Source: Candidatus Eisenbacteria bacterium (GTDB lineage: Bacteria; Eisenbacteria; RBG-16-71-46). From it: 52,098 bases of DNA. The position numbers and the translations under genes were made by a program. The notes below the pieces were generated by a model. It made no database searches. It was given only the letters and a program-made list of their open reading frames with translations, and was not told where the DNA came from. Where the stretch lies: assembly GCA_013140805.1 (NCBI GenBank), contig JABFRW010000031.1, positions 1 through 52,098 on the forward strand. Reading direction: 5' to 3'. Shown here piece by piece: positions 5,613 through 50,013 of this stretch (position 1 is its first letter; every line of letters begins with the position of its first letter).

Positions 5613-6160
5613 GCGTGCTGCCCGGCCTCACCGACCTCGCGCACCAGCGACTCGTGCAGGCAGGTGGGACCGCAGGACCGACAGCTGCGCGCGCCATGAT
5701 CGTTGCAAGCGCTGGGCGTTTCGCGATAGGCGGCCATGAACTCGCGAACCGCCGGATGTTCGGAACGCATGAAGTTCGTGAGGCGCAGCAGCTCGATCGA
5801 GACTTCCGGACTCACGAGATGCTCGATCATGCAGGCATCCTCATTCGCGACCGGTTCCGCGATCCCGAGAATCTCGGTGAGGAACAACGTGAGGACCCTG
5901 CGACTCGACTCGGTGCGATCGGCGAGGAGTTCACCGCTGGGGGTCAGTTCGACACTTCCATAACGCTCGTGTGCCACCAGACCCCGTGCCTGCAGGGAGC
6001 GAAGCATCGAGGTCACGCCACTCTTCGAAACTCCGAGGTGCTCGGCGATGTCGCCCACCCGAGCGTGTCCCTTGCCGCGCTTGAGTGTTGCGACGGCTTG
6101 AAGATAATGCGCCATCGAGTGCGAGACTTCCTGCTCACCGAATCGCTTCCACGTTTCCAT
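5609..6160 (-). CDS. DtxR/MntR-family metal-dependent repressor with a Cys-rich tail
   Basis: A 183-residue iron- or manganese-sensing transcription factor at the head of the feo operon. The N-terminal winged helix (res 14-70) includes VGDIAEHLGVSKSGVTSMLRSL as recognition helix and ERYGSVELTPSGE as wing. The dimerisation and metal-binding domain contains DACMIEHLVS, matching the Cys-x-x-Glu-His ligands of DtxR. After about res 140, where relatives have linker and SH3 domain, it ends in CNDHGARSCRSCGPTC, a four-cysteine cluster that could bind iron or an Fe-S centre. ATG 6160 was chosen because GAGG lies nine bases upstream and the homologous region starts there; the longer frame to 6199 adds unrelated residues. 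It probably represses feo when iron is plentiful. Confidence 0.9.
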   Translation of the reverse strand: METWKRFGEQEVSHSMAHYLQAVATLKRGKGHARVGDIAEHLGVSKSGVTSMLRSLQARGLVAHERYGSVELTPSGELLADRTESSRRVLTLFLTEILGIAEPVANEDACMIEHLVSPEVSIELLRLTNFMRSEHPAVREFMAAYRETPSACNDHGARSCRSCGPTCLHESLVREVGEAGQHA

Positions 6161-8880: not shown

Positions 8881-9927
8881 ATGCGTCGAACATGGCGATG
8901 GATGGCATCACTCGCCGGTGCACTCACCCTGGCGCCCGAAGCATTCTCGGGCACCTTGACGATCTCACCGCCGTCGGTGGCGTTCGGGAGTGTATCGATC
9001 TCGGGGCCGCTCGCGTCGACTTCGGTGACGATCACGAATCACGGCAGCGCGACGATCATTCTTGGATTCATCTCCGGAAGCGGTTGCTCGGAGTTCACGG
9101 CGGATGCTTTCTTCGAAGGCCTTCCCGTCACGCCGAAGACGCCTGCGTTTCTGACCGACGGACAATCGTTCAACGTCAACGTCAGCTACGATCCCGTGAA
9201 CCGCGGCGCGGATGCCTGCACATTCACGCTCGAGGATGGCAATGCGGCGGTGGATGCGTTCGGCGTCAGCGGTACCGGAGTGGCGCCGCTGTTGATCGTG
9301 ACCGTTCCAACGCCACCGAACGCATTGACGTTTGCGAATCAGGCCTGGGATACCGGCACCGGCGAGACCAAGAACATCCTGATTCAGAACAACGGCAGCG
9401 AGGCGATCGGGTCGACGAATCTGATTCGAACGCTCAACGCCGGCCTCGACTACGCACTCGGAGCGACATCGTTTCCGATCTCGCCGGGCGACACGGCGCT
9501 GGTTCCGGTGATCTTCAATCCGATCGCAGTGGGCGTGCGGAACGATGTGCTGACACTCGCGCTCGACAGCGATCTGCCCGGCGATCCCGACCGAACGGTG
9601 AATCTGAACGGCATCGGAACTTCTCAGACCGCCGATGTCGGAGAGGACGCTTCGGCGACGCGACTCCGTGGCGTCCATCCGTCGCCGACCCGCGGCCCGC
9701 TGGCGATCGAGTATTCGATTGCACGACCGGGTCGCGTCGACCTGCAGGTCTGCGATCTTTCGGGGCGCGTCGTGGGGCGATCGACTTCGATCGAGTCCGT
9801 TGCCGGGGTACGCACGGTCACCTGGCGGGAAGGCGTCGAGTGGTCGCCGAAGGCAGGCGTGTACTTCGTTCGGCTTGCGCTTGACGGTCGCGTATTGGGG
9901 ACTCGGCGTGTGGTCGTCATCCGCTAG
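8881..9927 (+). CDS. Secreted choice-of-anchor-D protein with FlgD/T9SS-type C-terminal tail
   Basis: A 348-residue exported protein with ribosome site GGAGG five bases upstream of ATG 8881. A signal peptide (res 1-23, SLAGALTLAPEAFSG) is followed by two Ig-like modules of the choice-of-anchor-D / abnormal-spindle (ASH) type. The first (about res 25-138) contains PPSVAFGSVSISGP...STSVTITNHGS; the second (about 140-245) contains LTFANQAWDTGTGETKNILIQNNGS. A C-terminal beta-sandwich (res 260-348) contains HPSPTRGPLAIEYSIARPG, DLSGRVV and KAGVYFVRL, the FlgD-Ig / type IX-like sorting module. Such proteins end up on the surface or are secreted. The similar tail on the metalloprotease at 36881 suggests a shared export route. 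Ligand unknown. Confidence 0.85.
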   Translation: MRRTWRWMASLAGALTLAPEAFSGTLTISPPSVAFGSVSISGPLASTSVTITNHGSATIILGFISGSGCSEFTADAFFEGLPVTPKTPAFLTDGQSFNVNVSYDPVNRGADACTFTLEDGNAAVDAFGVSGTGVAPLLIVTVPTPPNALTFANQAWDTGTGETKNILIQNNGSEAIGSTNLIRTLNAGLDYALGATSFPISPGDTALVPVIFNPIAVGVRNDVLTLALDSDLPGDPDRTVNLNGIGTSQTADVGEDASATRLRGVHPSPTRGPLAIEYSIARPGRVDLQVCDLSGRVVGRSTSIESVAGVRTVTWREGVEWSPKAGVYFVRLALDGRVLGTRRVVVIR

Positions 9928-11025: not shown

Positions 11026-12105
11026 TCAGGGTTCGGGCAGGACTTCGACGCCGGTGGCCTTGAACGACGCGAAGGCGTGTACGCCGGGGCGAAGTCCGAG
11101 TTCAGCGATCGCCGAGGCCGTGACCTGAGCCGCAAGCGGGGGGCGACTGTCGAGCATGACTCGAACCCGATCCCCCTTCGGAGGTTCGGGAATCAGCTCG
11201 GTCACTGCGCCTTCCATGATGTTCCGCGCGCTGCCGACCGGCGGGGTCACCGACAGGACGATGTCGTGCGGATGAACGACGAGCTGAACGCGACCGGTTC
11301 GTCCCGGATCCGGGACCGTGAGCGTGGAATCGCCTAAGTTCACGGTGGCGAGTCCGTCGGGATTCGAGTGCGTCAGTTCGCCGCTGAATAGATTCACTCC
11401 GAGAAATGCTGCGACGTACTGCGAGCGCGGATGTCGTACGAATGCCTCGCGGGTGCCGGTCTGAGTGATGCGCCCGCCTTCGAACACGGCAATGCGATGG
11501 CCGAGCGCAAGCGCTTCGGCGGGGTGATGCGTGACGAGGAGCGTGACGCATGCGAGTCCATCGAGAACTCGCTTGAGCTCACCTCGCACCGTGCGACGTG
11601 TCCCGACATCGAGCGCCGAGAGCGGTTCGTCGAGGAGCAAGACCGCAGGGTCCAGGATCAGCGCGCGGGCGAGCGCCACTCGTTGCTGCTGCCCGCCCGA
11701 GAGCTGTGCCGGCCGTCGATCGAGAAGCGCCGACAATTCGAACCGCTCGCTGATCTGGCGAGTGCGGTCCCGTACTTCGCGTGCTCCCACTCCGGATGCG
11801 CGAAGCCCGAACGCGATGTTCCCGAAGGCGTCGAGATGCGGAAACAGGGCGAGGTCCTGCGGGAGGTAGCCGACCGAGCGCGATTCCGGGGCGACGAACT
11901 GCCGTGTCTCCGAGTCGGACAGGACGACCTCATCGAGCACGATGCGCCCCGCATCGGGTTCGATGATGCCGGCGACCAATCGCAGGAGCGTGCTCTTTCC
12001 AGAGCCACTCTCGCCGACCAGCACCGTGATCTCTCCCGGGAGTGCGGTGAGCGAGGCGTCGAGCTGAAAGCTACCGAGCCGCCGTCGTACCTCGAGCTGG
12101 AGCAA
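11026..12105 (-). CDS. modC: Molybdate ABC transporter ATP-binding protein
   Basis: A 359-residue ATPase that powers molybdate uptake. It shows Walker A GESGSGKST (res 31-39), the Q-loop region YLPQDLALFPHL, signature [15 protein letters not shown] and Walker B AVLLLDEPLSALD. A C-terminal Mop/TOBE-type oxyanion-binding domain (about res 290-355) contains ARNIMEGAVTELIPEP...RVMLDSRPPLAAQVT...AELGLRPG, the mark of ModC as opposed to other importers. It starts at TTG 12105, with GGGGGG about eight bases upstream. The 35-base overlap with modB shows translational coupling. It is the last gene of the operon. Confidence 0.92.
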   Translation of the reverse strand: MLQLEVRRRLGSFQLDASLTALPGEITVLVGESGSGKSTLLRLVAGIIEPDAGRIVLDEVVLSDSETRQFVAPESRSVGYLPQDLALFPHLDAFGNIAFGLRASGVGAREVRDRTRQISERFELSALLDRRPAQLSGGQQQRVALARALILDPAVLLLDEPLSALDVGTRRTVRGELKRVLDGLACVTLLVTHHPAEALALGHRIAVFEGGRITQTGTREAFVRHPRSQYVAAFLGVNLFSGELTHSNPDGLATVNLGDSTLTVPDPGRTGRVQLVVHPHDIVLSVTPPVGSARNIMEGAVTELIPEPPKGDRVRVMLDSRPPLAAQVTASAIAELGLRPGVHAFASFKATGVEVLPEP

Positions 12106-12937
12106 ACGAGCGATCCCCCCACCAGCCTGCGGGTGCTGAGCGCAAACCGAGCAGCAGGATGAACGAGAAGGCGAGCAGAAGAATCGAGAGGACGACCGCC
12201 GTGTCGAGGTCCGACTGCAGCTCGAGATAGACCGCCAGCGGCATGGTCTGTGTCACGCCCGGCAGATTTCCGGCGAACGTGATGGTCGCGCCGAATTCAC
12301 CCAGCGAACGAGCGGCGCTCATGGCGACACCCGCGATCAGAGACGGCAGGGAGAGCGGCACCATGACGCGGAAGAATCGCCGCGCTTCGGAGGCCCCCAA
12401 TGTGGCGGCAACCTCGAGCAGTCGCGGGTCCACGCGGGCGAAACCCGCGCGAGCGGGCGAGACGAAGAACGGTGCCGCCATGAAAATCTGGGCGAGCACC
12501 ACGGCGAGTGTCGTGAAGGGAATCGCAACACCGATTCCGCTCAGCAGGTGGCCCGCGAGTCCCATGCGTCCGAAGGCCAACAGGAGCGCGAAGCCGGCCA
12601 CCGTGGGGGGCAGCACCATCGGCAGGTCGATCAGGACTTCGAGCAGGCGCTTGCCCGGAAATTCTCGGGTTGCGAGCAGATACGCGGTGGGGAGTCCCAG
12701 CACCACGACGATCGCGGTCGCGGCGAAGCTCGTCAGCAGGCTGAGTTTCAGTGCCGCCTGCACCGATGGTTCGGCGAGTCGCTGCAGGATGAGGCCGGGG
12801 GAGACTCGCGCGAGCAGGCCGATGAATGGCAGGGCGAGAAATGCCGTCAGCACCAGAACGCCCGCGAGCGCGAGGCCGGGAAGGAGCGGCGGCGCGGGCC
12901 GGCGCTTCGGTCGTCCGGAGGTAATGGTCGGGCTCAC
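12071..12937 (-). CDS. modB: Molybdate ABC transporter permease
   Basis: A 288-residue inner-membrane permease with about six membrane helices, for example PGLALAGVLVLTAFLALPFIGLLA and SLLTSFAATAIVVVLGLPTAYLL. The cytoplasmic EAA-type loop, EVAATLGASEARRFFRVMVPLSLP, is the ATPase docking site. LPMVLPPTVAGFALLLAFG is typical of ModB/CysT permeases. It starts at GTG 12937 in a GTGA overlap with modA and overlaps modC at its end. The order modA-modB-modC is the standard molybdate operon. Confidence 0.94.
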   Translation of the reverse strand: MSPTITSGRPKRRPAPPLLPGLALAGVLVLTAFLALPFIGLLARVSPGLILQRLAEPSVQAALKLSLLTSFAATAIVVVLGLPTAYLLATREFPGKRLLEVLIDLPMVLPPTVAGFALLLAFGRMGLAGHLLSGIGVAIPFTTLAVVLAQIFMAAPFFVSPARAGFARVDPRLLEVAATLGASEARRFFRVMVPLSLPSLIAGVAMSAARSLGEFGATITFAGNLPGVTQTMPLAVYLELQSDLDTAVVLSILLLAFSFILLLGLRSAPAGWWGDRSFAPARGTTAAR

Positions 12938-13749
12938 GGCGCCGCGACGACCGGGATCATCCCGCGCTCTGCAAGGATGCGTTGCCCTTCGGGCGACCTC
13001 ACCAGTTCGACGAAGGCTCGCGACAGCTCGGGAGCTCGCGTGCCTGCGAGTACCGCGATCGGATAGAGCGTCAAGACGTTTGCGGAGTCGGGAATCTCGA
13101 ACGTTCGAACGAATCGCGACAGCGCCGGCGTCACATCCGAACGATAGACGATGCCCGCATCGGCCTCTCCGAGCTGGACCTTGCCGACCACCGCCTTCAC
13201 GTTTTCCTCTTCAGAGACCACATTCGCGAGGACACGGCGTGCGAAGTCGGGATCGAACCCCGTGACGCTCGCCAGATTGCGGAGCATCTCCCGGCCATAG
13301 CGGCCGACCGGGACCGATTCCGCACCCATGACCAGCTTGATTCCGCGTCGCGCCAAGTCCTGAAGTCGCGCGATGCGCGCGGGATTGGTTCGCGGCACGA
13401 TGACGACCAGTCGATTACGCGCGAAGTGTGCGGGCGTCCCCATCACCAGCCCGACCTGTCGAACGTGGTCCATCCAGCGTTCGTCGGCGGAGGCGAAGAC
13501 GTCGGCAATCGCGCCCTGCTCGAGTTGCGCAGCGAGCTGCTGTGAGCCGGCGAGATTCAGCTGAACTCGAACTGCGGGATTCACGTCTTCGAAATGTCGC
13601 GCCAGTTCGCCGAACGACTCTGCGAGTGACGCCGCTGCGAAGACGCGGAGCGCGTTCCGCGGCACGCGTTCCGCGATTGCGTCACCGGGATTGAGGACCA
13701 TCGCGCACCACGCCACCAGCAGCGCTCTCACGGTCGGTTGCCAGTCCAC
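12934..13749 (-). CDS. modA: Molybdate-binding periplasmic protein
   Basis: A 271-residue substrate-binding protein. A signal peptide (RALLVAWCAMVLNPGDAIA) precedes the ModA fold: LRVFAAASLAESFGELARHFE (the first anion-binding loop AAASL), LAGSQQLAAQLEQGAIADVFASAD, NRLVVIVP and GRYGREML. Later come EEENVKAVVGKVQLGEADAGIVYRSDV and a C-terminal ELSRAFVELVRSPEGQRIL. GTG 13749 is preferred, because AAGGAG lies eight bases upstream; GTG 13755 overlaps the regulator stop but leaves only two bases. The mature protein binds molybdate or tungstate and delivers it to ModBC. Confidence 0.93.
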   Translation of the reverse strand: MDWQPTVRALLVAWCAMVLNPGDAIAERVPRNALRVFAAASLAESFGELARHFEDVNPAVRVQLNLAGSQQLAAQLEQGAIADVFASADERWMDHVRQVGLVMGTPAHFARNRLVVIVPRTNPARIARLQDLARRGIKLVMGAESVPVGRYGREMLRNLASVTGFDPDFARRVLANVVSEEENVKAVVGKVQLGEADAGIVYRSDVTPALSRFVRTFEIPDSANVLTLYPIAVLAGTRAPELSRAFVELVRSPEGQRILAERGMIPVVAAP

Positions 13750-13751
13750 CG

Positions 13752-14150
13752 TCACGACTCCTTTCGGTGCTTGCCGACGATGACCTCGGTGGCCTTGATC
13801 ACGGCGAAGGCCTCGTCCCCAATGCGGAGGTCCATCGATTCGGCGGAGGAACGCGTGATCACGGCAACCAGTTCCTGATCGCCGATCCGTACGGTGACCT
13901 CGGCCATCAGTCCGTCGGTTCGAAGCGTTGAGATGCGACCGCGCAGGCGGTTTCGTGCGCTGATCGAGAATGAGTCAGGCGCGGGTGTGGATTCGGAGAG
14001 GCCGAGCAATCGCTCCAACTGATCGCGATGGAACAGCCACTTTCGTCCCACGCGAACGGCAGGGAGTTTTCCCTTTCGAGCAAGGCTCTGAACGCGTCGA
14101 ACATCCAGGTGAAGCAGGGCCGCGGCCTCGCGTACGTCGAGAGTGTTCAG
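13752..14150 (-). CDS. HTH-Mop molybdate-responsive regulator, non-AUG start
   Basis: About 132 residues. The N-terminus is an excisionase-type helix-turn-helix (res 1-50): LDVREAAALLHLDVRRVQSLARKGKLPAVRVGRKWLFHRDQLERLL. The C-terminus (res 66-130) is a Mop-type molybdopterin/oxyanion-binding domain: SARNRLRGRISTLRTDGLMAEV...ELVAVITRSSAESMDLRIGDEAFAVIKATEVIV. This is the layout of small ModE-like regulators that head molybdate operons. The frame has no ATG, GTG or TTG near the domain start; CTG 14150, with GGAG ten bases upstream, is the best candidate, and the next ATG (14435) would add a proline- and arginine-rich stretch crossing the porin gene. It probably senses molybdate and controls the operon and the divergent porin. 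The stop overlaps the alternative modA start. Confidence 0.8.
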   Translation of the reverse strand: MNTLDVREAAALLHLDVRRVQSLARKGKLPAVRVGRKWLFHRDQLERLLGLSESTPAPDSFSISARNRLRGRISTLRTDGLMAEVTVRIGDQELVAVITRSSAESMDLRIGDEAFAVIKATEVIVGKHRKES

Positions 14151-14208
14151 GGTGGTAATTCTCCGGTGGAGCTTGGGATAAGTGATGCTAATGTGCTCAC
14201 CGTCTGGT

Positions 14209-14237
14209 TGCGACAGTATATTGCAGTACTTAGCGCA
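14209..14237. promoter_or_regulatory. Candidate operator between the mod operon and the porin
   Basis: An imperfect inverted repeat lies here: TGCG (14209-14212) with GTA (14216-14218) on the left, and TAC (14227-14229) with CGCA (14234-14237) on the right, around an AT-rich centre. Within it TATATT (14217-14222) on the plus strand and TATACT on the minus strand resemble -10 boxes, although matching -35 boxes are weak. The position between divergent promoters suits the Mop-domain regulator. Confidence 0.35.
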
Positions 14238-14281
14238 CTGCCGGCAAGGGGTGACTTCAGGTTCAGAACGGGGGGATCGAC

Positions 14282-15235
14282 GTGTCCAAAGGGGCTTGGC
14301 CGCTCGCCGTGGCACTGATGTTGGTTGTCGGATTTCACCGTTGCGACGCGTAGACACCGGCGGTGCAGCTGCCCCGCATCGGCGGCTACATTCAGTTGCG
14401 GGAGGTCGCGCAGGAGCGCGTGGGGCTGACGGCATCCCTGAATCGCGCGCGGATCTCCGTCGATGGCAACGCGGCGAGCGGATTTTCGTATCGACTGCTT
14501 GCCGAGTTCGAGGCTTCCGCGGGAGCCCGAAACCCGGCCATGGTCAGTCTGCGCGAAGCGATCGTCAGATGGTCGCGAGGATCGTTCGGCCTCACCGCAG
14601 GTCAGTTCAAGACCCCGTTCAGTCGCGAGTACCTGCTGCCGGTGCCGGTGCTCGAGACTCCCGACTTCGCCGCGGTGGTGGACTCGCTCGCACCGCGCTG
14701 TGACGTCGGATTGATGGGCGAATACGCCTTTGGACCGTTTGCGACGCTCTCGCTCGGCGTCTTCAACGGAGAGGGCCAGAACGCGATCGCCAACCGCGAC
14801 TCCCTGGTGCTCGCGGTGGCACGGATCGTCGCACGGCCGGTGGCGCAGGTCGGGCTGGGTGCGAGTTTCGCGCGCGACGGTCCCGACAGCTTGCGGTGGG
14901 GTATCGAGGCGAATATCGAACAGCAGGGGGGCCTGTTGCGCGGCGAGTACATCCTTCGACATCGCCGCGGTCGCGCGCACGATCGGGACGACTTCGGCTG
15001 GTACCTGCTGGCGGCCTATCGCGTCGTGCCGCAGCTCCAACTGGTCGCCCGAGCGGAACGTTTCGAGCGACCTGCCTTCGGACCCACGCGACGAGTCGAG
15101 GCCGCGACGCTCGGAGGCATCGTCGAGCTGGTTCCGAATCGCATTCGACTGCTGGTCGATGGAGTGCGTCGCCGTACCGGCGCCCAGAGGAATCGATCCG
15201 ACGTCCTCATCGCGCAGCTGCAGGCACGCTTCTGA
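14282..15235 (+). pseudogene. Porin O/P-like outer-membrane porin interrupted by an amber codon
   Basis: The frame opens at GTG 14282 with GGGGGGA upstream and encodes a signal peptide (GAWPLAVALMLVVGF...CDA). Codon 24 (14351-14353) is TAG. The same frame then continues without interruption for 294 codons with a porin-type barrel: IGGYIQLREVAQ, LNRARISVDGN, YRLLAEFEAS, GLTAGQFKTPFSREYL, and a C-terminal aromatic tail QARF. GQFKTPFSRE is the hallmark of the phosphate-selective porin O/P-like family. CAG in place of TAG would give a normal cleavage site DAQTP, so a single C-to-T change (real mutation, sequencing error or suppressed stop) explains it. GTG 14363 could restart translation, but the product would lack a signal peptide. 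The divergent mod operon hints at an anion substrate. Confidence 0.75.
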
Positions 15236-15245
15236 TGCGAGACGC

Positions 15246-16667
15246 TTACGCGCTCTCGGCCGCGAGCTGGCCGGAAGTGCCGTTGCCGGCCGCAGCGGAC
15301 TCGCCGTGTCCGCGAGGATCGGCCAGCTCGTAGGCGTTGAGTCGGTTGTAGAGCGTCTTGAGGCTGACGCCGAGGATCTTGGCCGCCCGCCGCTTGTCTC
15401 CTTTGAGCTGGTCGAGGGTCGCGAAGATCAACCGTCGCTCGACCTCCTCGATCGATGCGCCCACCCGCACCTCGAGCGTCGGCCCATGGGTCGCGTGCCG
15501 GTCGATCGGAGCCGACGCGGGCAGCGACTCGGGTCGAATCACACCATCCGAGAGGATGACCGCGCGTTCGACCGCATTGCGAAGCTCGCGCACGTTGCCT
15601 GGCCAGGCATAGTTCGTGAGGCGCTCAGTCGCTTCCGAGCTCCAACGACACTCGACGCCATGGCGCTCCGTGGCTTCCGCGAGGAACTGGTTCGCCAGCA
15701 TGACCAGGTCCTCCCCGCGATCGCGCAGCGGCGGAAGCTGGATCGGAAAGACGTTGAGTCGGTAGTAGAGGTCCTCGCGAAGCGCACGCGCTTTGATGGC
15801 CTCGAGGGGATCCTGATTCGTGGCGGCGATCACCCGCACGTCGACTGGAATCACCTCGGACGAGCCGACGCGGGTGATGGTGCCGGTCTCGAGCACGCGC
15901 AGGAGTTTGACCTGAAGTTCGATCGGCATCTCCGTGACTTCGTCGAGAAACAGCGTTCCGCCGTTGGCTTCCTCGAAGTGGCCTCGCCGCTCCCGATCGG
16001 CGCTCGTAAAGCTGCCCTTCTGGTGTCCGAACAACTCGCTCTCCATGAGCGACGGAGCGATCGCGCCGCAATTGACGGCCAGGAACCGTGCGGCCTTGCG
16101 GGAGCCCATGCGATGAATCGTCTCCGCCACGACTTCCTTCCCGGTGCCGCTTTCCCCTGTGATGAGTACGCTCGCATTGGTGCGCGTGACGCGGTCGATC
16201 AGGTCGAACACACGCTGCATTGCGGGAGAGTGGCCCACCAATCGTCCGAAGCGTCCGAGATCCCGCAGCTCGTGCTTGAGTCCGCGAATCTCCGTCTTGA
16301 GCTCGCGCGTTCGAGTCACGTTGGCGAAGATCGCCCGCAGGCGCGAGCGTTCGACCGGCTTCACGAGATAGTCGGTCGCTCCGTGCCGAAGCGCCTCGAT
16401 CGCGGATGGCACGCTGGCGTTCCCCGTGATCACGACCAGTTCCGACTGGGCGGCGACCGCTTCGTCCTTGAGCAGGGAGGCGCCATCGCCGTCCGGGAGG
16501 CCCAGATCGACGAGCACCACGTCGGGCGTAGACTCGGCAAGCAGTCGCTTCGCGTCCTCGAGACTGCCGGCCTCGCGAATCGAGTGACCCTCACGGTTCA
16601 ACAGCAACGCGAGACTGCTGCGAAACTCTTCGTCGTCATCGACGATCAATACCGAGACGGGCGCCAT
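15246..16667 (-). CDS. NtrC-family sigma-54-dependent response regulator
   Basis: A 473-residue transcription activator. The receiver domain (res 1-115) has VLIVDDDEEF and phospho-acceptor Asp in VDLGLPDGDG (about res 54). The AAA+ domain (about 140-375) has Walker A GESGTGKE (about 172), Walker B GGTLFLDEV and the R-finger region. The sigma-54 contact loop reads GSFTSA where most members have GAFTGA. A Fis-type helix-turn-helix follows (about 405-445): GDKRRAAKILGVSLKTLYNRLNAY. ATG 16667 opens at the receiver domain; the longer frame adds unrelated residues. It lies downstream of a kinase and a receiver protein, and candidate -24/-12 promoters stand before nearby genes. It converges with the porin, 10 bases apart. 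Confidence 0.95.
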   Translation of the reverse strand: MAPVSVLIVDDDEEFRSSLALLLNREGHSIREAGSLEDAKRLLAESTPDVVLVDLGLPDGDGASLLKDEAVAAQSELVVITGNASVPSAIEALRHGATDYLVKPVERSRLRAIFANVTRTRELKTEIRGLKHELRDLGRFGRLVGHSPAMQRVFDLIDRVTRTNASVLITGESGTGKEVVAETIHRMGSRKAARFLAVNCGAIAPSLMESELFGHQKGSFTSADRERRGHFEEANGGTLFLDEVTEMPIELQVKLLRVLETGTITRVGSSEVIPVDVRVIAATNQDPLEAIKARALREDLYYRLNVFPIQLPPLRDRGEDLVMLANQFLAEATERHGVECRWSSEATERLTNYAWPGNVRELRNAVERAVILSDGVIRPESLPASAPIDRHATHGPTLEVRVGASIEEVERRLIFATLDQLKGDKRRAAKILGVSLKTLYNRLNAYELADPRGHGESAAAGNGTSGQLAAESA

Positions 16668-31780: not shown

Positions 31781-34177
31781 TCAGGCATGGGTCAGGGCCT
31801 CTCTCACCGTGAGCCGGGCGGCACGGCGAGCCGGATAGAAGCTGCTCAGCGACGCGACGACGAGCAGCAGCAGCAACCACCACAGCGGCGCGACGAGCGA
31901 CAGGTGGAAGTTCAGCGGGGACTTGAAAAAGATGTTTCCGCATGCGGCCTCGAGCACATAGCTGATCGGCGCCGCCAGCAGCATCGCGAAGACCCAGCTG
32001 ATGACTGCGACCAGAAGGCTCTCGAACCAGACGTGTCGCGCGATGGTCGAGGGCGTGGCGCCGATCGTGCCGAGAATGCCGAACTCCCGAGTGCGCTGAA
32101 CGACCTGGAGCGTCATCGAGGAGGCGAGGCCGAGGCCGCCCACCAGCACCACGACCAGCGATGCCATCGTCAGAACACTCAGGATGATCACGAGGTGATC
32201 GAGGATGCCCTGTCGTACGTCCAGCATGCGGTGCATCCCGGCGACCTCGATGCCGTGACTCTCGGCGGCACTTTCGATGCTGCGCGCGACGCTTCGCTGA
32301 GTGGCGTCGTCATGCGCGCGGGTGACGACCTGAATCAGTCGCACCAGGGAATCCGGTTGCCCGATCGCGTCGCGAACCAGCTCGCGCGGCGCATAGACGG
32401 TCGCCATCGGCGTGAGTTCCTTGACGATGCCGACGATCGGCAACTCCAGTGTGCGGCCGGCGAGTCGGAGTCGCACCTGATCTCCGATCTGCAGGCCGGG
32501 ATGGCGCGCGAGCACGCCGTTGTTGACGACGGCCGCGAGCGAGTCGCCGGACTCCAGCCACCGCCCGGCCACCAGCGGGAGCGCCAGCATCGTCGAGCCG
32601 GCGGGAAGTCCGAGAAGCGCGAGTGTCGATCCGGGTACTCCGCTCGGGCCGATCAGATAGGGCCCGGCTCCGAGCCAGAACTCGACGCGCTCGATGAGCG
32701 GAAGTTCCCCAAGCAGGGTGCGAACTCGTTCGACCGAGGTGGGGCGCGCAAGCCGGAGCGCCAGGTCGTAGCGCCGCACTCGAAAATCATCATTCACCGC
32801 TCGCGTCCACGCTTCGGCCACATTGAGCGCGGAGATGAAGGCCGCGCCACCGATCGCCAGCATGCCCAGTGTCAGGGCGAGACGGCCTCGCTGAACGAGG
32901 GTGCCGCGCATCGAGAGCAGAAAGGCCCTAGGCAACCAGGTGCTGCGCATCAGCCATCGATCCGAGCGGCGGGTTCCGAACGGCCTCCGACCCGGAGCGT
33001 CATTCAGCGCCTCGAGAACGGTGATGCGGGCGGCGCGCTGCACCGGGACCCACGCGATGAGCAGCGGGATCAGCACGCCGACGCCGATCTCGATCGCGAT
33101 CACCCAGTAGGGGAAGGGTGCACGCGAGATGTCGGCGTTGAGCACTCCGGCAGCGAAGCTGGCGTAGGCCCTTCCGACCACGATGCCGAGCGGGACGCCG
33201 ACCGCGAGCGAGCCTAGGGCCAGCACGGCGACCTCTCCGAGGTAGAGGCCGGCGATCTGTCGGGAAGTTGCGCCGATCGCTTTCATGACACCGATCTGGC
33301 GGAGCTGCTCGCTCATGTGGGCGTGCACCATCGAGGTCACCAGCACGGCGCTAAGCCCGAAGCTCAGGATGCCGAACGCGAGGAGCAGGTAGAGGAACGC
33401 CTGCATCTGATCGGCGTGAGGATGGCGCCCGAGAGTCGGAATCGTGACACGTTCGACGGTGCGCCCGCTCCGTTCGAGCAGCGCCTTGACCGAATCGGCG
33501 ACCTCACGGACGTAGCCTTCGTCGAGCGGGTGCTCGGCGACGACGATGCGCAGCTGCGAGGACTCGCCGTGCGTCCGGCCGCGTACCGCCGAGTCCCAGC
33601 CGACAAAGCCCGGCACCATGTGTTCCATCCAGGCGGGCGGCAGGCCCTCGGCATGAACCGTCCCCGCGACCGTCAGCGAGACCTGGTCGCCTCCGTCGAG
33701 ACGAATCGCCACGGAGTCTCCGATCGCGGCCTTCGCAACCTGGAGCGCGCTGCGCTCGAGCAGGACCTCGCCCGCCGCGGGCGGCCAGCGTCCCTGGTCG
33801 CGACGAAAGGTGTCGATGCGTAGTCGATCGAAGTCGCGCACCACCTGAAGGATGGCGGGAATCCATTCGTCGGGGCCGACCCGGATCCGCGCGATCACGA
33901 GCGGACGAGCTTCCGCGAGCGCGACGCCGCGAAGCGCACCGACCGCGGCGATCAGCGCATCGTCGAGGGAGTCGACCACGAAGGTCGCCGAGGCCGGCTG
34001 GGTGCGGCTGTACATGGCGCCCAGTTCCGGCTGCAGCACCGCGTACTTGTAGAGCATGACGCCGATCTGAAAGATCCCGGCGGCGAGCGCCAGCATCACC
34101 AGCACCGAGCGCCCGCGTCGTCCGAACAAATCCCGCCACACCTTTTTCCATCGCGGCGCACTCACGAGGCGACGCAT
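31781..34177 (-). CDS. FtsX/MacB-type ABC transporter permease
   Basis: A 798-residue permease with two FtsX units in one chain. The first membrane helix ([20 protein letters not shown]) is followed by a large periplasmic domain of the MacB_PCD type (about res 50-260). Helices containing [20 protein letters not shown] and [19 protein letters not shown] come next, then a second periplasmic domain (about 440-640). Near the C-terminus are [24 protein letters not shown] (a cytoplasmic FtsX signature) and [28 protein letters not shown]. Such permeases work by mechanotransmission and export lipoproteins, peptides or antimicrobials. It overlaps the ATPase by 16 bases and has no membrane-fusion partner in the window. 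Confidence 0.9.
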
Positions 34178-40267: not shown

Positions 40268-43200
40268 CTATACACTTCCTACCGGGACCGGCTCTCCCAA
40301 AACGACACGGACGTGGTGAGTTCGACCATCCGAAACCAGCGGGATCGCGGCTGCGTTCACCGCGACGCCGTCCAACTCGACCTCCGCGACTCCGCGGTTG
40401 CGGTGTGCCGGGTTCTCGACGCGAATGTCGTAGCGGGCCGTGCCGTACCGCCACTCGACCGAGAAGCCGTCCCACGCGGCTGGAATGCACGGAGCGATGG
40501 CGAATGCTGAGCCCCGGCGTTCGATGCCGAGAATCGACTCGAGCCCGAGGCGATACATCCACGCCGCGGAGCCGGTGTACCAGGTCCAGCCCCCGCGGCC
40601 CATGTGGGAGGGATGCGTGTAGACGTCGGCGGCAACCACGTACGGCTCGACTTTGTAGCGATCGACGTCGGCCCGGGTGCGCGTGTGATTGATCGGATTG
40701 ATCATGTGGAACAGTTCGACGGCCTCGTCGCCGCTGCCAAGGCGCGCCATCGCCATCACCGTCCACAAGGCGGCGTGTGTGTACTGTCCGCCGTTCTCGC
40801 GTACTCCGGGCAGATACCCCTTGATGTAACCGGGGTCGAGCGGCGCGCGGTCGAACGGCGGCGTGAGGAGCTGAATCACACCGGCGTCACGCCGCAACAA
40901 CTGCATGCGCACGGCATCCATCGCGCGTTCCGCGCGGCGAGTGGGAGCGGTGCCCGAGAGCGCTGCCCAACTCTGCGAAATGGCGTCGATCCGGCACTCC
41001 GCCGACTGCGCGGAACCGAGCGGGGAGCCATCATCGAAGTACGCGCGCCGATACCACTCGCCATCCCAGGCCTGCTCGAGTGCGCGGCCGAGCAATTCGC
41101 ACTCTCCGCGCCATCTCACCGCTCGTTCGGCGTCTCCGCGCGCTTCAGCGACGGCCGCGAACTCACGCAGGACCCGTGACAGGAACCAGCCGAGCCAAAC
41201 GCTCTCGCCGCGGCCACGATGCCCGACGCGATTCATGCCGTCGTTCCAGTCCCCGCTACCGATCAGGGGCAGGCCGTGTGCGCCCATGGTAAGGCTACGC
41301 TCGATCGCGCGCACACAGTGTTCGTAGAGCGAACCGCTCTGCGCGGATCGCTCGGGCTGTCCATAAGCATCCGGCTCACCCGCTCCGAGCGGCGGCGCTT
41401 CGAGAAACGCGATCCGTTCGTCGAGCACCGCAGGATCGTCCACGGTGGCGAGGTAATGGGAAACCGCGAACGGAAGCCACAGCCGATCGTCGGAGCAATG
41501 GGTCCGAACGCCTCGCCCCGAGTGGTCGTGCCACCAATGTTGCACGTCACCCTCGACAAACTGACGCGCGGCGGCGCGCAGGAGGTGGGCCCGCAACAGC
41601 TCGGGACCGGCGAACGTGAACGCCATCAGGTCCTGAAGCTGGTCGCGGAAGCCGAACGCTCCGCCCGGTTGATGGAAGCCGGTGCGTCCCCACACCCGTG
41701 AGCCCAGCGACTGATAGAGCAACCACCGATTCATCAACAGATCGAAGGAATCGTCTGGAGTTCGAACCTGGATGGTGTCGAGAATCTCGTCCCATGCGCG
41801 GCCGACCTGCGCGAGCACCTCTACCGCAGCGGCGGGGGTTGCGAAGCGACGCGCGAGATCCATCGCGCGCTCCCGAGATGGAGCCTGACCGAGCGACAGT
41901 ACGACTTGCTTCGACTCGCCCGGGGCGAGCGCCACCGGTACCTGGAGCGCCGCGCACGGGTCGAGGCCAGCGCCGAATCGTTCACCCAATCGCTCACGCG
42001 TAAGGGCGGCGGGCCGTTGCAGCGAGCCGTTGCGGCCGAGGAATTCGAGGCGATCGCCGGTCGCGGAGGTGGCGGCGGGATGCGAGGCTGCGAAGGCCAC
42101 CCGACTCGCGAAGTCGGTGTTGTAGGGATTGCGAGCCAGGATCACCCCGCTTTCCCGATCGCGTTCGGTGATCACGAAGCGCTGCTCGCCCGCCCGCGGT
42201 GGGCACAGTGCCCACTCGTTGTACGCGAACACGGCCACCTTGCGCGCGGACGCGCCGTGGTTGGTGAGCGTGATGAGCGTGAGTTTGAGCGACTCGGTCG
42301 GGTGCACGAACACTTCCGTTGTGCACTCGATTCCGCGTTCGCGATGGGCGAAACGGGTCACCCCCGCGCCATGTCGCGTGACCCAGCGCCCACCCTGAGG
42401 CGAGCGTGGAAGCGGGCCAGGAGTGGCGCCCCAAACGCGGCCCGAGTCCTCGTCCCGCAGGAAGATCGCTTCACCGCTGAACTCGCTGACGGGATCGTTT
42501 CCGAACGGCGTGAGGCGATTCTCCCGACTGTTCTCGGCCCACGTCCACGCGGCACCGGTCGCACCGACCACGGTGCCGAAGTTCGGATTGGCGATGACGT
42601 TGACCCACGGCAAAGGCGTGTCGGCATCGCCGGACAACACCACCGCATACTCGCGACCGTTCGCGACGAATCCGCCCAATTCGTTCGAGTGCGACAAGAC
42701 CGGCGCCTCGATCTCGGTGTCCGATTCCACCGGCGTCGACTCTTCCGCCTTCGCTGCGAACTTGACGCGGGGCAGCGTGGGGATCGGACGCGGCAGATCG
42801 AGCTGATCGGCCAGCTCGCCGAGTTCTCCGCTCAGTACCGCGCGAGCCGAGGCCATGAGCAGAATGCGCTGCGCGTCGGACATGCCGTCGCCCCGCAGCA
42901 GATAGACGCCGCCCGGGCGATGCTTCCACGCCGCCCACGGGCCGTTCTCCAGCAGCTCCTGCAAGCGCTCGTGCATCTCGTCCAGGTAGCTCACCGGATG
43001 ATCGTTCAGAATGACCAAATCGGCGTTGAGGCCCTTGAGTCGCCAGTACTCCTGAGCTCTCAACACCTGCCGCACCAGTCCGAGATCGTTCTCCTCGACG
43101 ACACGCGCCAGCAGGATCGGAAGATCGCCCGAGATCTCATGGGCCCACAGTCCCGACTGCCCGAGCGTATTGGCCTCGAGAAAGGTCGGTGCCGCACGCA

Positions 43201-46200
43201 GCGACGCATCGGTCCACAGCACTCGCGAAGCCAGTCGTTCGTAGAGTTGCGCTTCATCGGTCGAGAGCCCGAGATGTCGGAGTCGCATCTGGGTCTGGGT
43301 CGTCGCGAGTGCAAACGTTCGTGATGCCGACGCGGAATCGTCGTACTTCTCCGCCAGGGCGATCGCGGCGGCATGGCTGAGCGCCACACCGGTCGCGAAC
43401 GAGAGTCGCACCTGTCCACCGGGAGCGATTCGGACGCGACGCCTCAGGCTCAGCACCGGATCGAGCACCGCGCCAGTCGTTCCAGACAACGGCCGGCCGT
43501 CGAGCGCCTGTGGATTCGCCGGTGTGCGGCCGCGACCGACGAAGCGCGAGCGATCGGTTTCCCATTCGACCGCGCCATGCACACCGCCTTCGGCGCTGAG
43601 CACATGTACGGCCCACGGTGCCGGTTCGTCGGGCGAGCGGGGCCGTCTTCCGCACAGGATCGCGCCGCACTCCGGCCGATACTCGGTCTCGAGGAACAGC
43701 TTGAGGAAGGTCGGATGCGCGAGGTCCTCGGAAGGAGGTGCGAGCACCACCTCGACGAGGCTCGTGATCTCGATCTCGCGCAGCCGATCCGTCGTGTTGA
43801 CGAGCGAAATGCGTCGTACTTCGACGTCGTCCTCCGGGGACACCGTAATCTCGAGGTGCGTCACGATCCCGTCGTCGGAGCGGTGGAACACCGCTTCGTC
43901 GGCGAGGAAGCGCACCTCATAGCGTTCGGGTTCTCGACACACCGGCTGATACGCGGCGGACCACAGCAGGCCGCTGCGCACGTCCCGCAGGTAGATGAAG
44001 TGGCTGCCCGCGTCGCACGTCGCGTCCTCGCGCTGTCGCGTCACGGAACGCCCGCGCCAGCTGCTCGCTCCGCCACCGGCGTGCGTCACGACCGCCGTGT
44101 ACTGGCCGTTCGAGAGGAAGTGCGCGCTCGGGAAACTGGTGTGCGGTGACCGGAATCGTCGCGGTGCCGCCTCGAGCGTGGGGGGCCCGACGCGTGTGGA
44201 CTCTGCGGGGCGAGGTCGCGTGACCGGTACGTAGCGCGGCACGCGCTCCTGCAACAGCGGCTCGGTGACCTGTACGCGCGGATCCGAGTGGAAGCGGCGC
44301 ACCATCGGGCTGCCGAGTACCGCGTTGGTGAGCGCGACCAGGCTCATGCCTTGATGATGCGCGAAGAACGCGCGCACCAGACGGACACGATCCGTCACGG
44401 CGGCGGCGTGGGGCGTGTCGACGGGACGCTGACGAGGCGTGAAGTCGAGCGCTTCGTAGAAGCCGAACGATCGCTGAGCACCCTCGCGCGCCAGCCTTCG
44501 GAAGTTCGCGGCGGCCGCCGCGGGATCCACCATCGCCGCGAGCGCGGTCGCGTACGGCGCGATGACGAGGTCCTCCGCCAGACCGCGCTTGAGCGCCAGT
44601 CCCGGGACACCGAACGCCTTGTACTGGTAGTTGCCGTGCTGGTCCACCAGATCGAACGCCGATTCGGAGATGCCCCACGGCACGCGCTGTGATTGGGCAT
44701 AGGCGATCTGCGCGCGCAGCACCGCACGGTGCGTGTTCTCGAGCAGCGTGTCCGGGTGATTGCGCATGATGAGCAGCGGCATCAGGTACTCGAACATCGA
44801 TCCGCTCCACGAAACCAGTGCCGCACGCCCTTCGACGCTCAGGAGTGCGCGTGACAGGCGGAACCAGTGCTCCTGCGGGACCTCGTCACGCGCGATCGCG
44901 ATGAAGCTCGCGAGTCGCGCCTCGGAAGCGAGCAGGTCGTAGAACGACGCGTCTCGCCGCCCCGGGCCGTCCGCAGTCGCGAGCCGGAAACCGATCGAGA
45001 ACATGCCGCGCGGGCGATCGTAGAGAAACTTCCAGCTCATCCGGTCGACCAGCGCATCACACCGCGCCGCGAGTGCTTCGAGCCGTTCGCGTACCGCGCC
45101 GCCCGCACCCGGCGGTTCGAGGCAGCGCTCGATCGCTTCGTGGAGCGAAGCACCCCACTCCGCGATCTGGTCCCGCGTCGAACCCGGAACGCCCCAGCGC
45201 ACCACTTCGTCGAGCGCCGCGGTCAACTCGCGATCGAATGACCTCAGTTCTGCGGAGTGCGACGTCGTTCGATGCGCCTCCGCGTCGTGGGTGAGGCGCT
45301 GCTGGAGCGTGTAGACGATCCCCAGCGCAGTGCTGCTCGACTGCAGCGCCGCCTTCACGCCTTGCGACTCGCGCCGCAGCGAGGTGAGCAGTTCGACCAG
45401 CACCCCAGCACCATCCGCAGCGCCCGATCGCACGCGCTCCTCGTCGTCGGCGCCATCGCCCAGCATGCGAAGGCCGGCGGCCAGCGTCATGAGCGCACCG
45501 GCGAGATTGCCGCTGTCGACGGTCGAGACGTAGCGCGGCAACAGCGGAGCGAGGTTTTCGGTGTCGTACCAGTTGAGGATGTGCCCTTCGTGACTCTCGA
45601 GGCTCTCGACCGTTCCGAGCATGCGCTCGAGCCGCTCGATCAGTTGGGCCGTGCGCACATAGCCGAGGTCGTGTGCGGCCAGCGTCGAAAGAAGGCCCAT
45701 CCCGATGTTGGTCGGTGAAGTGCGGTGGGCAATGCGAGGCTCGCGATCCTCCTGGGTGTTGTCGGGCGGCAACCAGTGATCGCGCTCGTGCAGGAAGCGA
45801 TCGAACCAGTGCCAGGTGCGACGTGCGATGCGTCGCAACAGCGCGATATCCTCCGGGCTGGGAGCGAGTCGCCGCGGTACGACCGGCCGACTCAACCACC
45901 ACGCGACGAGCGGCGAGCCGAGCCACAGCAGCAGAAATGGCAGGGCCGCCGGGAGCGCGCTGGCTCGCAACGGTAGGAGGCCGAGCAACGCCACCATCGC
46001 GACCGCCGGCCCGGCCCACATCTCGGCGACGAAAGCGCGCCGTCCCTCGCGGGCCAGAAGATGCGCCGCGCGCGCGGCGGTCGTCGCGGCGGTTTCCCAC
46101 TCGAGCAGACGACGCTGCGTGATCACCATTCGAATCAGCGTCAGGGCGATCGCGTGCAGCATTTCGTAGGCGTGATACGCGAGCAGCGCGATCTCGAGCA

Positions 46201-48847
46201 GGACTTGTGCACCGGCCGTCTGGAACTCCGCCCAGACGTCGTGCAGGAATACGCCGAGAGGCTGCTGCGGCCGAGGACCGCGAATGAAGTGCAATCCGAC
46301 CGGGAACATCGGGAAGGCGAGCACTGCGAGTGCCGCGAGCGTCCACGGCAGGGGAGAGCCCGGCATCCAGGTCCACGCGGAGGCCAGAAACGCAAGCATC
46401 GCCGGAGCCTCGAGACTGCGTCTCAGGTTGTCGAGGATCTTCCAGCGGCTGATGAGTGGCAGGCGGCTGCGTTCGAGCCCGCGACGCGTCGGAACCACCG
46501 GCAGCAGCCACAACAGGATCTGCCAGTCGCCGCGGACCCACCGATGCTGACGCCGCGCGTGCGCCAGGACGCTGGAGGGGAAGTCGTCGACCAGCTCGAC
46601 GTCCGACACCAGCGCGCAACGCGCATACAGACCCTCGAACAGATCGTGCGAGAGAATCGCGTTCTCCGGCACTCGCCCTTCGAGTGCGGCGGCGAACGCA
46701 TCGACGTCGTAGAGGCCCTTGCCGGTGAAGGTGCCCTCGCCGAACAAGTCCTGGTAGGTGTCCGAGACTGCGGTGGTGTAGGGATCGATCCCGGTGTGTC
46801 CTGCATAGACTCGCGCGAACAGGGATCCCGCGGCGCTCGCCATCGTGACGCTCACGCGCGGCTGCAGCATGCCGTATCCCCGCACCACACGGCGCAGGGC
46901 GGGATCGAACACGGCGCGATTGAGCGGATGCTCGATCACGCCGATCAACTGACGCGCGGAATCGCGCGGCAGCCGCGTGTCGCTGTCGAGCGTGATGCAG
47001 TAGCGCACCTGGGGGAGGATCGAGAGCTCGCCGCGCGTGATCACGAAGCTGGTGTCCGTCGCTCCCCGCAGCAGGCGATTGAATTCCTCGAGCTTCCCAC
47101 GCTTTCGCTCCCAGCCCATCCACACGCCTTCACTCGCGTTCCACCTTCTCGCGCGATGGAACAGGTAGAAGCGGTCACTTCGGCCCGCCCCGTAGCGGAC
47201 GTTCAGCGCCTCGATGCCGGCGATGGCCGCTTCGAGCGTCTCCTGTTCGCCCGCGAGGTGTTCGGCGTCGGCGTCGGCGAAATCGGTCAGCAGCGCGAAG
47301 TGAATACTCGGATCGTTGTTCCCGAGCGCGTGCACCTCGAGATGCTCGACCAGCGCGCGCGCCCCGTCGACCGAGGCGAGCAGGGTCGGGACCACCACCA
47401 TCGTGCGGGCCGAGACGGGAATGCCATCACGAAGGTCGAGACGCGGGAGGCGTCGCGGTTTGACGATGCGATGCACGACGCGATGAACGGTCGCGACCGC
47501 GAAGCTCGCGGCCGGCAGCAATGCGATCGCGGCCACCCACGCGAAGCTCGAGGTGGCGGCGCCCTGTGCTTGGGCGCCCCAGACGGCGAGCGCGACTCCC
47601 AGCAGGGTCAACGAGGCGACGGTTCCGAGATAGAACGTCGTCGCGTGCCCGAAAATCGCGCGAGTGAATCGGAGGCGAAGTCGTGGTGCGTGCGCAACAT
47701 CGACCTCGAAGCCGCGCCGCCCGCCACCGATCAGGTGATAGCCGACGTGGGCGGCGAGTGATCCGAAGCCATTGGCTTCCGCGGCCTCGCGGGAGCTCTC
47801 GATCGCACGCAGCGCGACGCGAACCTGAGCTTCGCCGGTCGGTTCGGCCAACTCCTCGACGGCGTGCCGGTAGCGGTCGCGGCTCGTGAAGTCCATGCGG
47901 CCATAGGTGCCGTTCGGATCCCGCATGAGGATTTGTTCGATGAGGCTGACGCTCTCGAAGTATTGATTCCAGTCGAGCGTCGCGCACAGCCGCAGGCTCG
48001 TGATGCAATTGCCCATCGACACGCTGCCCATCGCCTGTCGCTGATGCTCGGCTCGCACGGCCTCTTCGACGGTGACGCCGCCCCGGCCGAGCCGCTCTTC
48101 CAGCTGCGATCGAAGCTCGGCCGCCGCCGCGCCGTACTCGCGCATCCGCTGCAGCAGCTGATCGACGAACGCGACATGGAGCTGCCGTGGCAGCGGGGCA
48201 GGCCGTTCGGATCCGTGATGACGCTCAAATGCCGCGAAGTGCCGGTCCGCGCTTCGGCGTCCGTCACGGCTCTCCAGCAGTTCCTCAGCCAATCGTCGCA
48301 AGTGGCCGATCAGGGCCATCTTGAGCATGCTCGGCCACGCCCACAGTTCGCCGATGCTGATGCTTGCAACGGTCTGAAACGCATTCATGAAGCGATCGAG
48401 CCGGCGGGCGTCGAGTCGCGCGTCGCTGTACCGCAGCAACTCGACCGCCATGGCGAAGATGCGAGCCATTCCCGCGCGATCACGGGCCGCGAGCTTGGGC
48501 AGTTCCTGGTAGTAGCGAGTCGGGAGGTGGTGGCGGATCTCGCGGATCTCGCCCTCGATGAGATGGAAGTTGTCCAGCAACCACTCGGCGCCCGGCGCGA
48601 TCGCCTCGCCATGTCGCACGTCGGCGGCGATTCGGCGATAGGCATCGCGCAGCACCCGAGCATCGGCATCGAGTTGCCGCAGCAGCAAGGGCCCGCGCCG
48701 CGGATGGCGCGACAACGTGAACCCGGCCGCCAGTGCGCGGGCGCGTTCTTCGAGGCGCTCGACGCCGAGCAGCTCCCCGTGAAGGGGGCTCGAGTCGAGA
48801 CCGATCGGACGAAGGTGAGGCTCGCTCGTTGCAGGGCTCGCTGCCAA
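40268..48847 (-). CDS. ndvB: Cyclic beta-1,2-glucan synthase (NdvB/ChvB type)
   Basis: A 2859-residue inner-membrane enzyme. It makes cyclic beta-1,2-glucan from UDP-glucose and exports it with help from a transporter. TTG 48847 is preferred (AAGGAG nine bases upstream); a TTG at 48964 would overlap the divergent epimerase. In order: an N-terminal region (res 1-420), membrane helices (about 430-510), a GT84 transferase (about 475-800) with [10 protein letters not shown] (DxD-type) and QHRWVRGDW (QxxRW), further helices (about 820-975), a glycoamylase-like segment (about 1005-1480, with [12 protein letters not shown]) and two phosphorylase-like N-terminal sandwiches. A GH94 cellobiose-phosphorylase-like domain follows, whose [13 protein letters not shown] (about 2535) holds the catalytic Asp, and this part sets ring size. 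Length agrees with Agrobacterium/Rhizobium ChvB/NdvB (about 2830). No NdvA exporter is seen here. Confidence 0.95.
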
Positions 48848-48963
48848 CGGTGTGCGCTCCTTCCGCGAGATGACCGTGGTGGGCACGGCCGCAGGATTGA
48901 GGCCTGCGCATACTATCAGGCCGGCTTCGTCGACGGGCCAGCGGTGTGGCAACATGCACGGCA

Positions 48964-50013
48964 ATGAACGACGCTCCGCTCATCTTGGTCACTGGTGGCT
49001 CGGGCTTCAACGGCATCAATCTGATCCGCCATCTGCTCGAGCGCGGCTACCGAGTGCGCTCGCTCGACCTGCTGTCGTTCGACTACGTCGATTGTCGCGA
49101 TCGCATCGAGGCGATCCAGGGCGACATTCGCGACCGCGAGACCGTCGAGTCCGCTATGCGCGGAGTTCGACTGGTCGTGCACTGCGCCATGGCGCTGCCG
49201 CTCTACCCCTCGCACGAAATCCTCACCACCGGGATCGACGGCACGCGTCGGCTGCTCGAGAGCGCGGAACGGAATCGAGTCGAGCGCTTCGTCCACATCT
49301 CATCGACTGCGGTCTACGGGATTCCGGACCACCATCCACTGCTCGAGACGGATCGACTCGATGGCGTGGGTCCCTACGGCAAGGCCAAGGTCGAAGCCGA
49401 GTCGGTGTGCCACGAGTTTCGCGCCCGGGGGATGTGCGTCCCGATTCTGCGCCCCAAGAGCTTCATCGGGCCCGAGCGACTCGGCGTATTCGCGCTGTTA
49501 TACGACTGGGCGCAGGAAGGGCGCAGCTTCCCGATGATCGGAAACGGGAAGAATCGCTATCAGCTGCTCGACGTCGCCGACTTGTGTCAGGCCATCGAGC
49601 GCTGCCTGACGCTCGATACCGCGATCGTCAACGACACCTTCAACATCGGTGCGCGGGAGTTCCTGACCATGCGCGAGGACTACCAGGCGGTGCTCGACCG
49701 CGCGGGGTTCGGCAAGCGGGTGCGCGGATTCCCGTCCGCTCCGCTGATCTGGACGTTGCGGGTCCTCGACGCGCTGCGACTCTCTCCGCTCTACAAATGG
49801 GTGTACGAGACCGCCAGTAAGGACTCGTTCGTCTCGATCGAGAAGGCCGAGCGACTGTTGGGCTATCGATCTCAGTACTCCAACCGGCAGGCGCTGGTTC
49901 GCAACTTCGAGTGGTATCTGGCTCACCGAAGCGAGTTCGCCAACCGCTCGGGAGTCTCACACCGGGTGCCGTGGAAACAGGGCGCGCTCGGAATCGCCAG
50001 GCTGTTCTTCTAG
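48964..50013 (+). CDS. NAD-dependent epimerase/dehydratase (extended SDR)
   Basis: A 349-residue nucleotide-sugar-type reductase/epimerase. [26 protein letters not shown] gives the Rossmann TGxxGxxG loop (res 10-17), then IQGDIRD, SSTAVYG (catalytic Ser/Thr region) and YGKAK (Tyr-x-x-x-Lys, about res 138). ATG 48964 is preferred to 48946, which adds a non-conserved start. There is no strong ribosome site. Extended SDRs of this kind convert or oxidise NDP-sugars or sterol-like substrates; the C-terminal substrate pocket ([12 protein letters not shown]) does not tell which. It lies divergent from the cyclic glucan synthase and upstream of a MATE transporter, a natural set for surface-glycan or secreted-product chemistry. 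Confidence 0.9.

Follow-up and report, generated by a model that had tools for sequence, protein, structure and literature searches.

A gene encoding a porin of the OprO/OprP type, divergent from the molybdate uptake genes of a Candidatus Eisenbacteria-like metagenome assembly, is interrupted by an in-frame amber codon in the cleavage region of its signal-peptide-like leader. The stop is rather probably a genuine and very young nonsense lesion in a gene of the molybdate locus, either a mutation fixed recently or a polymorphism among strains that the consensus happened to capture. The window analysed here, contig C31 with a length of 52,098 nucleotides, belongs to a 3.8-Mb draft of 215 contigs that is about 96% complete.

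Frame of the interrupted porin gene

The first-pass annotation had described a ribosome site, a GTG start, a signal peptide and a porin barrel in one frame, interrupted only by TAG and open for 294 codons thereafter. Translation of positions 14282-15247 gives VSKGAWPLAVALMLVVGFHRCDA*TPAVQLPRIGGYIQLRE...AQLQARF* (asterisks mark stops), and the common frame of GTG, leader, TAG and barrel was confirmed by this translation together with a chance test for the leader. A ribosome site is present ('GGGGGGA', 6 nt before GTG 14282), but it is a weak one, and the frame downstream of TAG is open as described, but for 293 codons plus a stop. The features of the locus are as follows:

11026-12105, minus strand: modC/wtpC-like ATPase (WtpC 280 bits, ModC 251 bits; below the curated cut-offs of both)
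12071-12937, minus strand: modB, molybdate permease, ends in TAG (TIGR02141, 216 bits against a cut-off of 182.6)
12934-13755, minus strand: modA, molybdate-binding protein (TIGR01256, 129 bits against a cut-off of 62.5)
13752-14150, minus strand: modE-like regulator, HTH_17/excisionase-type HTH plus Mop/TOBE domain (Pfam, NCBIfam)
14151-14281, no strand: divergent promoter region, intergenic between modE and the porin gene
14282-14350, plus strand: signal-peptide-like porin leader of 23 codons with GTG start, VSKGAWPLAVALMLVVGFHRCDA (translation, hydropathy and chance test, signal peptides of relatives at the same place)
14351-14353, plus strand: in-frame TAG (amber) in the signal-peptide cleavage region (sequence)
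14354-15235, plus strand: porin body, OprO/OprP type, 16 strands, 293 codons plus TGA (Pfam, PDB match, AlphaFold, fold match)
14363-14365, plus strand: GTG, the sole canonical in-frame start close after TAG, without ribosome site or signal peptide (ORF list, sequence)

The leader resembles a signal peptide, in having a lysine, a core of hydrophobic residues and, ahead of TAG, a small residue. For the chance test, every stop in the six frames of the window with 150 or more open codons behind it (n = 147) was examined for a start codon 15 to 35 codons upstream that opens an in-frame leader of equal hydrophobicity. Only two stops passed: the porin TAG and the stop at 31783, where a long gene terminates. 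The interruption of the porin frame is therefore considered real and more than a product of chance. By its codon-position GC (0.73/0.50/0.78) the porin body resembles real genes, and the next in-frame stop is the TGA at 15233-15235.

The part after TAG matches the Pfam family Porin_O_P (PF07396; E = 3.3e-16, 60 bits against a curated cut-off of 20.9), six further matches of which are found in the genome, and Porin O in the PDB (E = 4e-10). Its AlphaFold model is a 16-strand barrel (pLDDT 79, pTM 0.74), for which OprP (2o4v) is the best fold match in the PDB, with 17% identity over the fold match. The barrel starts about 7 residues past TAG; the entire barrel is thus encoded after the stop and the export signal alone before it. 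The open reading frame that automatic gene callers would report is the one of 290 amino acids from GTG 14363.

Two other gene products of the window were observed aside from the porin locus. A very large protein of 2898 amino acids with GH94/glucoamylase domains (40268-48964), cyclic glucan synthase-like, terminates in TAG, and a choice-of-anchor D protein (8881-9927) terminates with a weak sorting domain of the type IX secretion system (T9SS type A).

Relatives of the porin and the molybdate locus

In four genomes of the same family, orthologues of the porin with 51 to 58% identity were found, none of them with a stop and all with a signal peptide in frame. The Gemmatimonadales homologues L009, L010 and L012 have their signal peptide in frame, too, and in every complete relative it is located where the leader sits in the window and shares the frame of the barrel. 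No relative closer than 58% identity was detected in searches at genus, class and phylum level. Six relatives are invariant at 53 alignment columns; the window porin agrees with them in 52 of these and deviates in one, while the same test applied to each relative in turn gave 5 to 12 deviations. As judged from this alignment, the porin body shows no sign of decay. Because of this agreement the stop must be either very young or false, and the earlier view of a very recent event is borne out by the conserved body and the intact relatives.

The residue at the position of the stop lies within a linker that is variable among relatives. It had been proposed that TAG replaced CAG, which would restore a 'DAQTP' cleavage site. 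Glutamine just past the presumed cleavage site is found in L009, L010 and L012, which fits the proposal, but in none of the four same-family orthologues; a glutamine as the original residue is, on the alignment, plausible and not established.

The porin gene is divergent from modE-modA-modB-modC (window 11026-15235). The order of porin, regulator, modA, modB and ATPase is kept in G001, G018 and the Gemmatimonadales locus L012, and in G013, G005 and L009 the porin adjoins the same regulator; among the locus entries, the full arrangement is seen in L090, L092 and L012, and regulator plus porin only in L091, L093 and L009. Given this conserved divergent pairing with mod genes, the porin is probably linked to molybdate, and its neighbourhood places it, again probably, in a molybdate or tungstate uptake locus. 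From its conserved pairing with modABC and a ModE-like regulator, the protein is a candidate for an oxyanion porin that serves molybdate or tungstate specifically; this OprO/OprP-type candidate is conserved in Eisenbacteria and Gemmatimonadales. A literature search for porins associated with mod genes returned nothing specific; PF07396 porins have been described under Fur, not ModE (PMC545781). In the divergent region between modE and the porin, a scan for sigma-70 consensus promoters and terminators found none, and a palindrome search of the intergenic regions yielded neither a strong palindrome nor a shared operator.

A second anomaly concerns the start of the modE-like gene. In the alignment, the gene has CTG (14150-14148, minus strand) where G001, G018, G005, L012 and L009 have an ATG start, and no in-frame ATG, GTG or TTG is found between residue 41 of the long modE open reading frame and the HTH domain. 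Starts further upstream (GTG 14315 and beyond) were judged unlikely; GTG 14315 is not preceded by a ribosome site, and the extended frame, which lacks homology, would span the intergenic region and reach into the porin leader. Translation in bacteria can be initiated at CTG, though this is rare, and the modE anomaly may therefore be harmless. The porin TAG and the modE CTG are 201 nt apart and flank one promoter region. Such paired anomalies in start regions suggest that the locus is being switched off or that the consensus is locally poor.

Termination at TAG and origin of the stop

A suppressor that reads the amber codon, and the use of TAG inside other genes, had been raised in the first-pass annotation. 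Neither was borne out by the genome. A gene for release factor RF1 was found (497.7 bits), and its frame is intact. Rfam detected 42 tRNA genes, all of which were typed for their anticodon, and CUA was found in 0 of the 42, in a genome about 96% complete in which a few of the expected tRNAs are missing; a suppressor encoded in the missing part is conceivable. Pyrrolysine synthetase (PylS) was not found in a genome search. Among 123 conserved-domain matches genome-wide (60 ABC-ATPase and 63 response-regulator), none contains an in-frame TAG and one weak match contains TGA. TAG serves as terminator of modB and of the GH94, reprolysin/FG-GAP and epimerase genes in the window, and in G013, G018 and G005 the porin gene likewise terminates in TAG. 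The organism uses the standard code with working termination machinery. A literature search on stop-codon recoding in Eisenbacteria returned nothing relevant, and the data have some value as clear evidence against a recoding of TAG in the lineage. Elsewhere in this genome (G000, C112:5620-5781 and 5849-6115), a response-regulator domain is apparently split, with its parts in two adjacent frames and a TGA in frame; it is possibly a broken gene or an assembly error.

That TAG encodes an amino acid in this lineage, an idea for which only the open frame speaks, is refuted for practical purposes by RF1, the lack of a CUA tRNA and of in-frame TAG in the 123 domains, and the TAG-terminated genes of the window and of the three relatives. 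The same findings, together with the lack of PylS, speak against a suppressor tRNA as well. Useful decoding of the codon by a suppressor or near-cognate tRNA, with the porin made at a reduced level, is quite improbable: the frame is open and under constraint on either side of TAG, and in-frame stops under purifying selection are reported to be widespread in bacteria, where they probably lower expression (PMC7918605), but the stop is conserved in no relative, and readthrough above the level of leakage is unlikely. Very improbable is also a true start at GTG 14363, with the product exported in another way or serving another role and the 23-codon upstream frame acting as a leader peptide. This GTG is in frame and yields the 290-residue product, but no ribosome site precedes it, the complete relatives all have their signal peptide in the barrel frame, and a barrel beginning so close to TAG would be expected to be stranded without one; such a start, which had been considered with a different export route, is unlikely to yield a working porin.

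The main rival to a real lesion is an error of consensus or assembly, whereby the porin is intact in the organism and the TAG, perhaps also the modE CTG, is a wrong base due to thin or strain-mixed coverage. This appears possible, though rather unlikely. The low divergence of the porin body fits such an error as well as it fits a young mutation, the relatives' porins are intact, the genome is a draft in 215 contigs, and two anomalies so close together hint at a locally poor consensus. On the other hand, broken frames are rare in the assembly (the single TGA, in a weak match, among the 123 conserved-domain matches), and no further lesion was seen in the porin gene, modE, modA or modB. That the TAG and the CTG are matched translational down-settings, selected to lower the output of porin and regulator with both genes kept, is highly doubtful.

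With a genuine young lesion, the preferred explanation, ribosomes would start at GTG 14282 and terminate once 23 residues have been made. Reinitiation at GTG 14363, 10 nt past TAG, would be weak if it occurs at all. Because the restarted barrel would be without export signal, the outer membrane would receive little or no porin. Molybdate could cross via other outer-membrane pores, and the six further Porin_O_P matches could cover for the loss. The CTG at the modE start suggests that both genes of the divergent pair may be losing translation or have it reduced, and the lesion is possibly part of a decaying locus.

Comparison with known systems

With the phosphate-selective porins OprO and OprP (PF07396; PDB 4rjw, 2o4v), the window porin shares the sequence family, the 16-strand barrel and the best fold match. 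It is shorter, however (293 versus about 411 residues), adjoins a molybdate operon instead of phosphate genes, and is broken by TAG. The locus resembles ModE-modABC uptake loci in its Mop-domain regulator and its modA, modB and modC genes, whereas the regulator combines an excisionase-type HTH with one Mop domain in place of the ModE HTH with two Mop domains, and the conserved locus includes a divergent porin gene.

The stop itself is an ordinary kind of case, since short-lived nonsense alleles occur in bacteria and wrong bases in draft assemblies. In-frame stops are common in conserved bacterial genes, and most of them persist no longer than polymorphisms do (PMC7918605). The window porin is similar to the in-frame stop alleles of Belinky et al. 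2021 (PMC7918605) in having a single stop, with TAG among the types, a frame that is undamaged and under constraint before and after it, and intact relatives. In contrast to those stops, each of which occurs in at least two related genomes, the one in the window is found in one assembly only, and it is located within the export signal, so that the expected loss is nearly complete.
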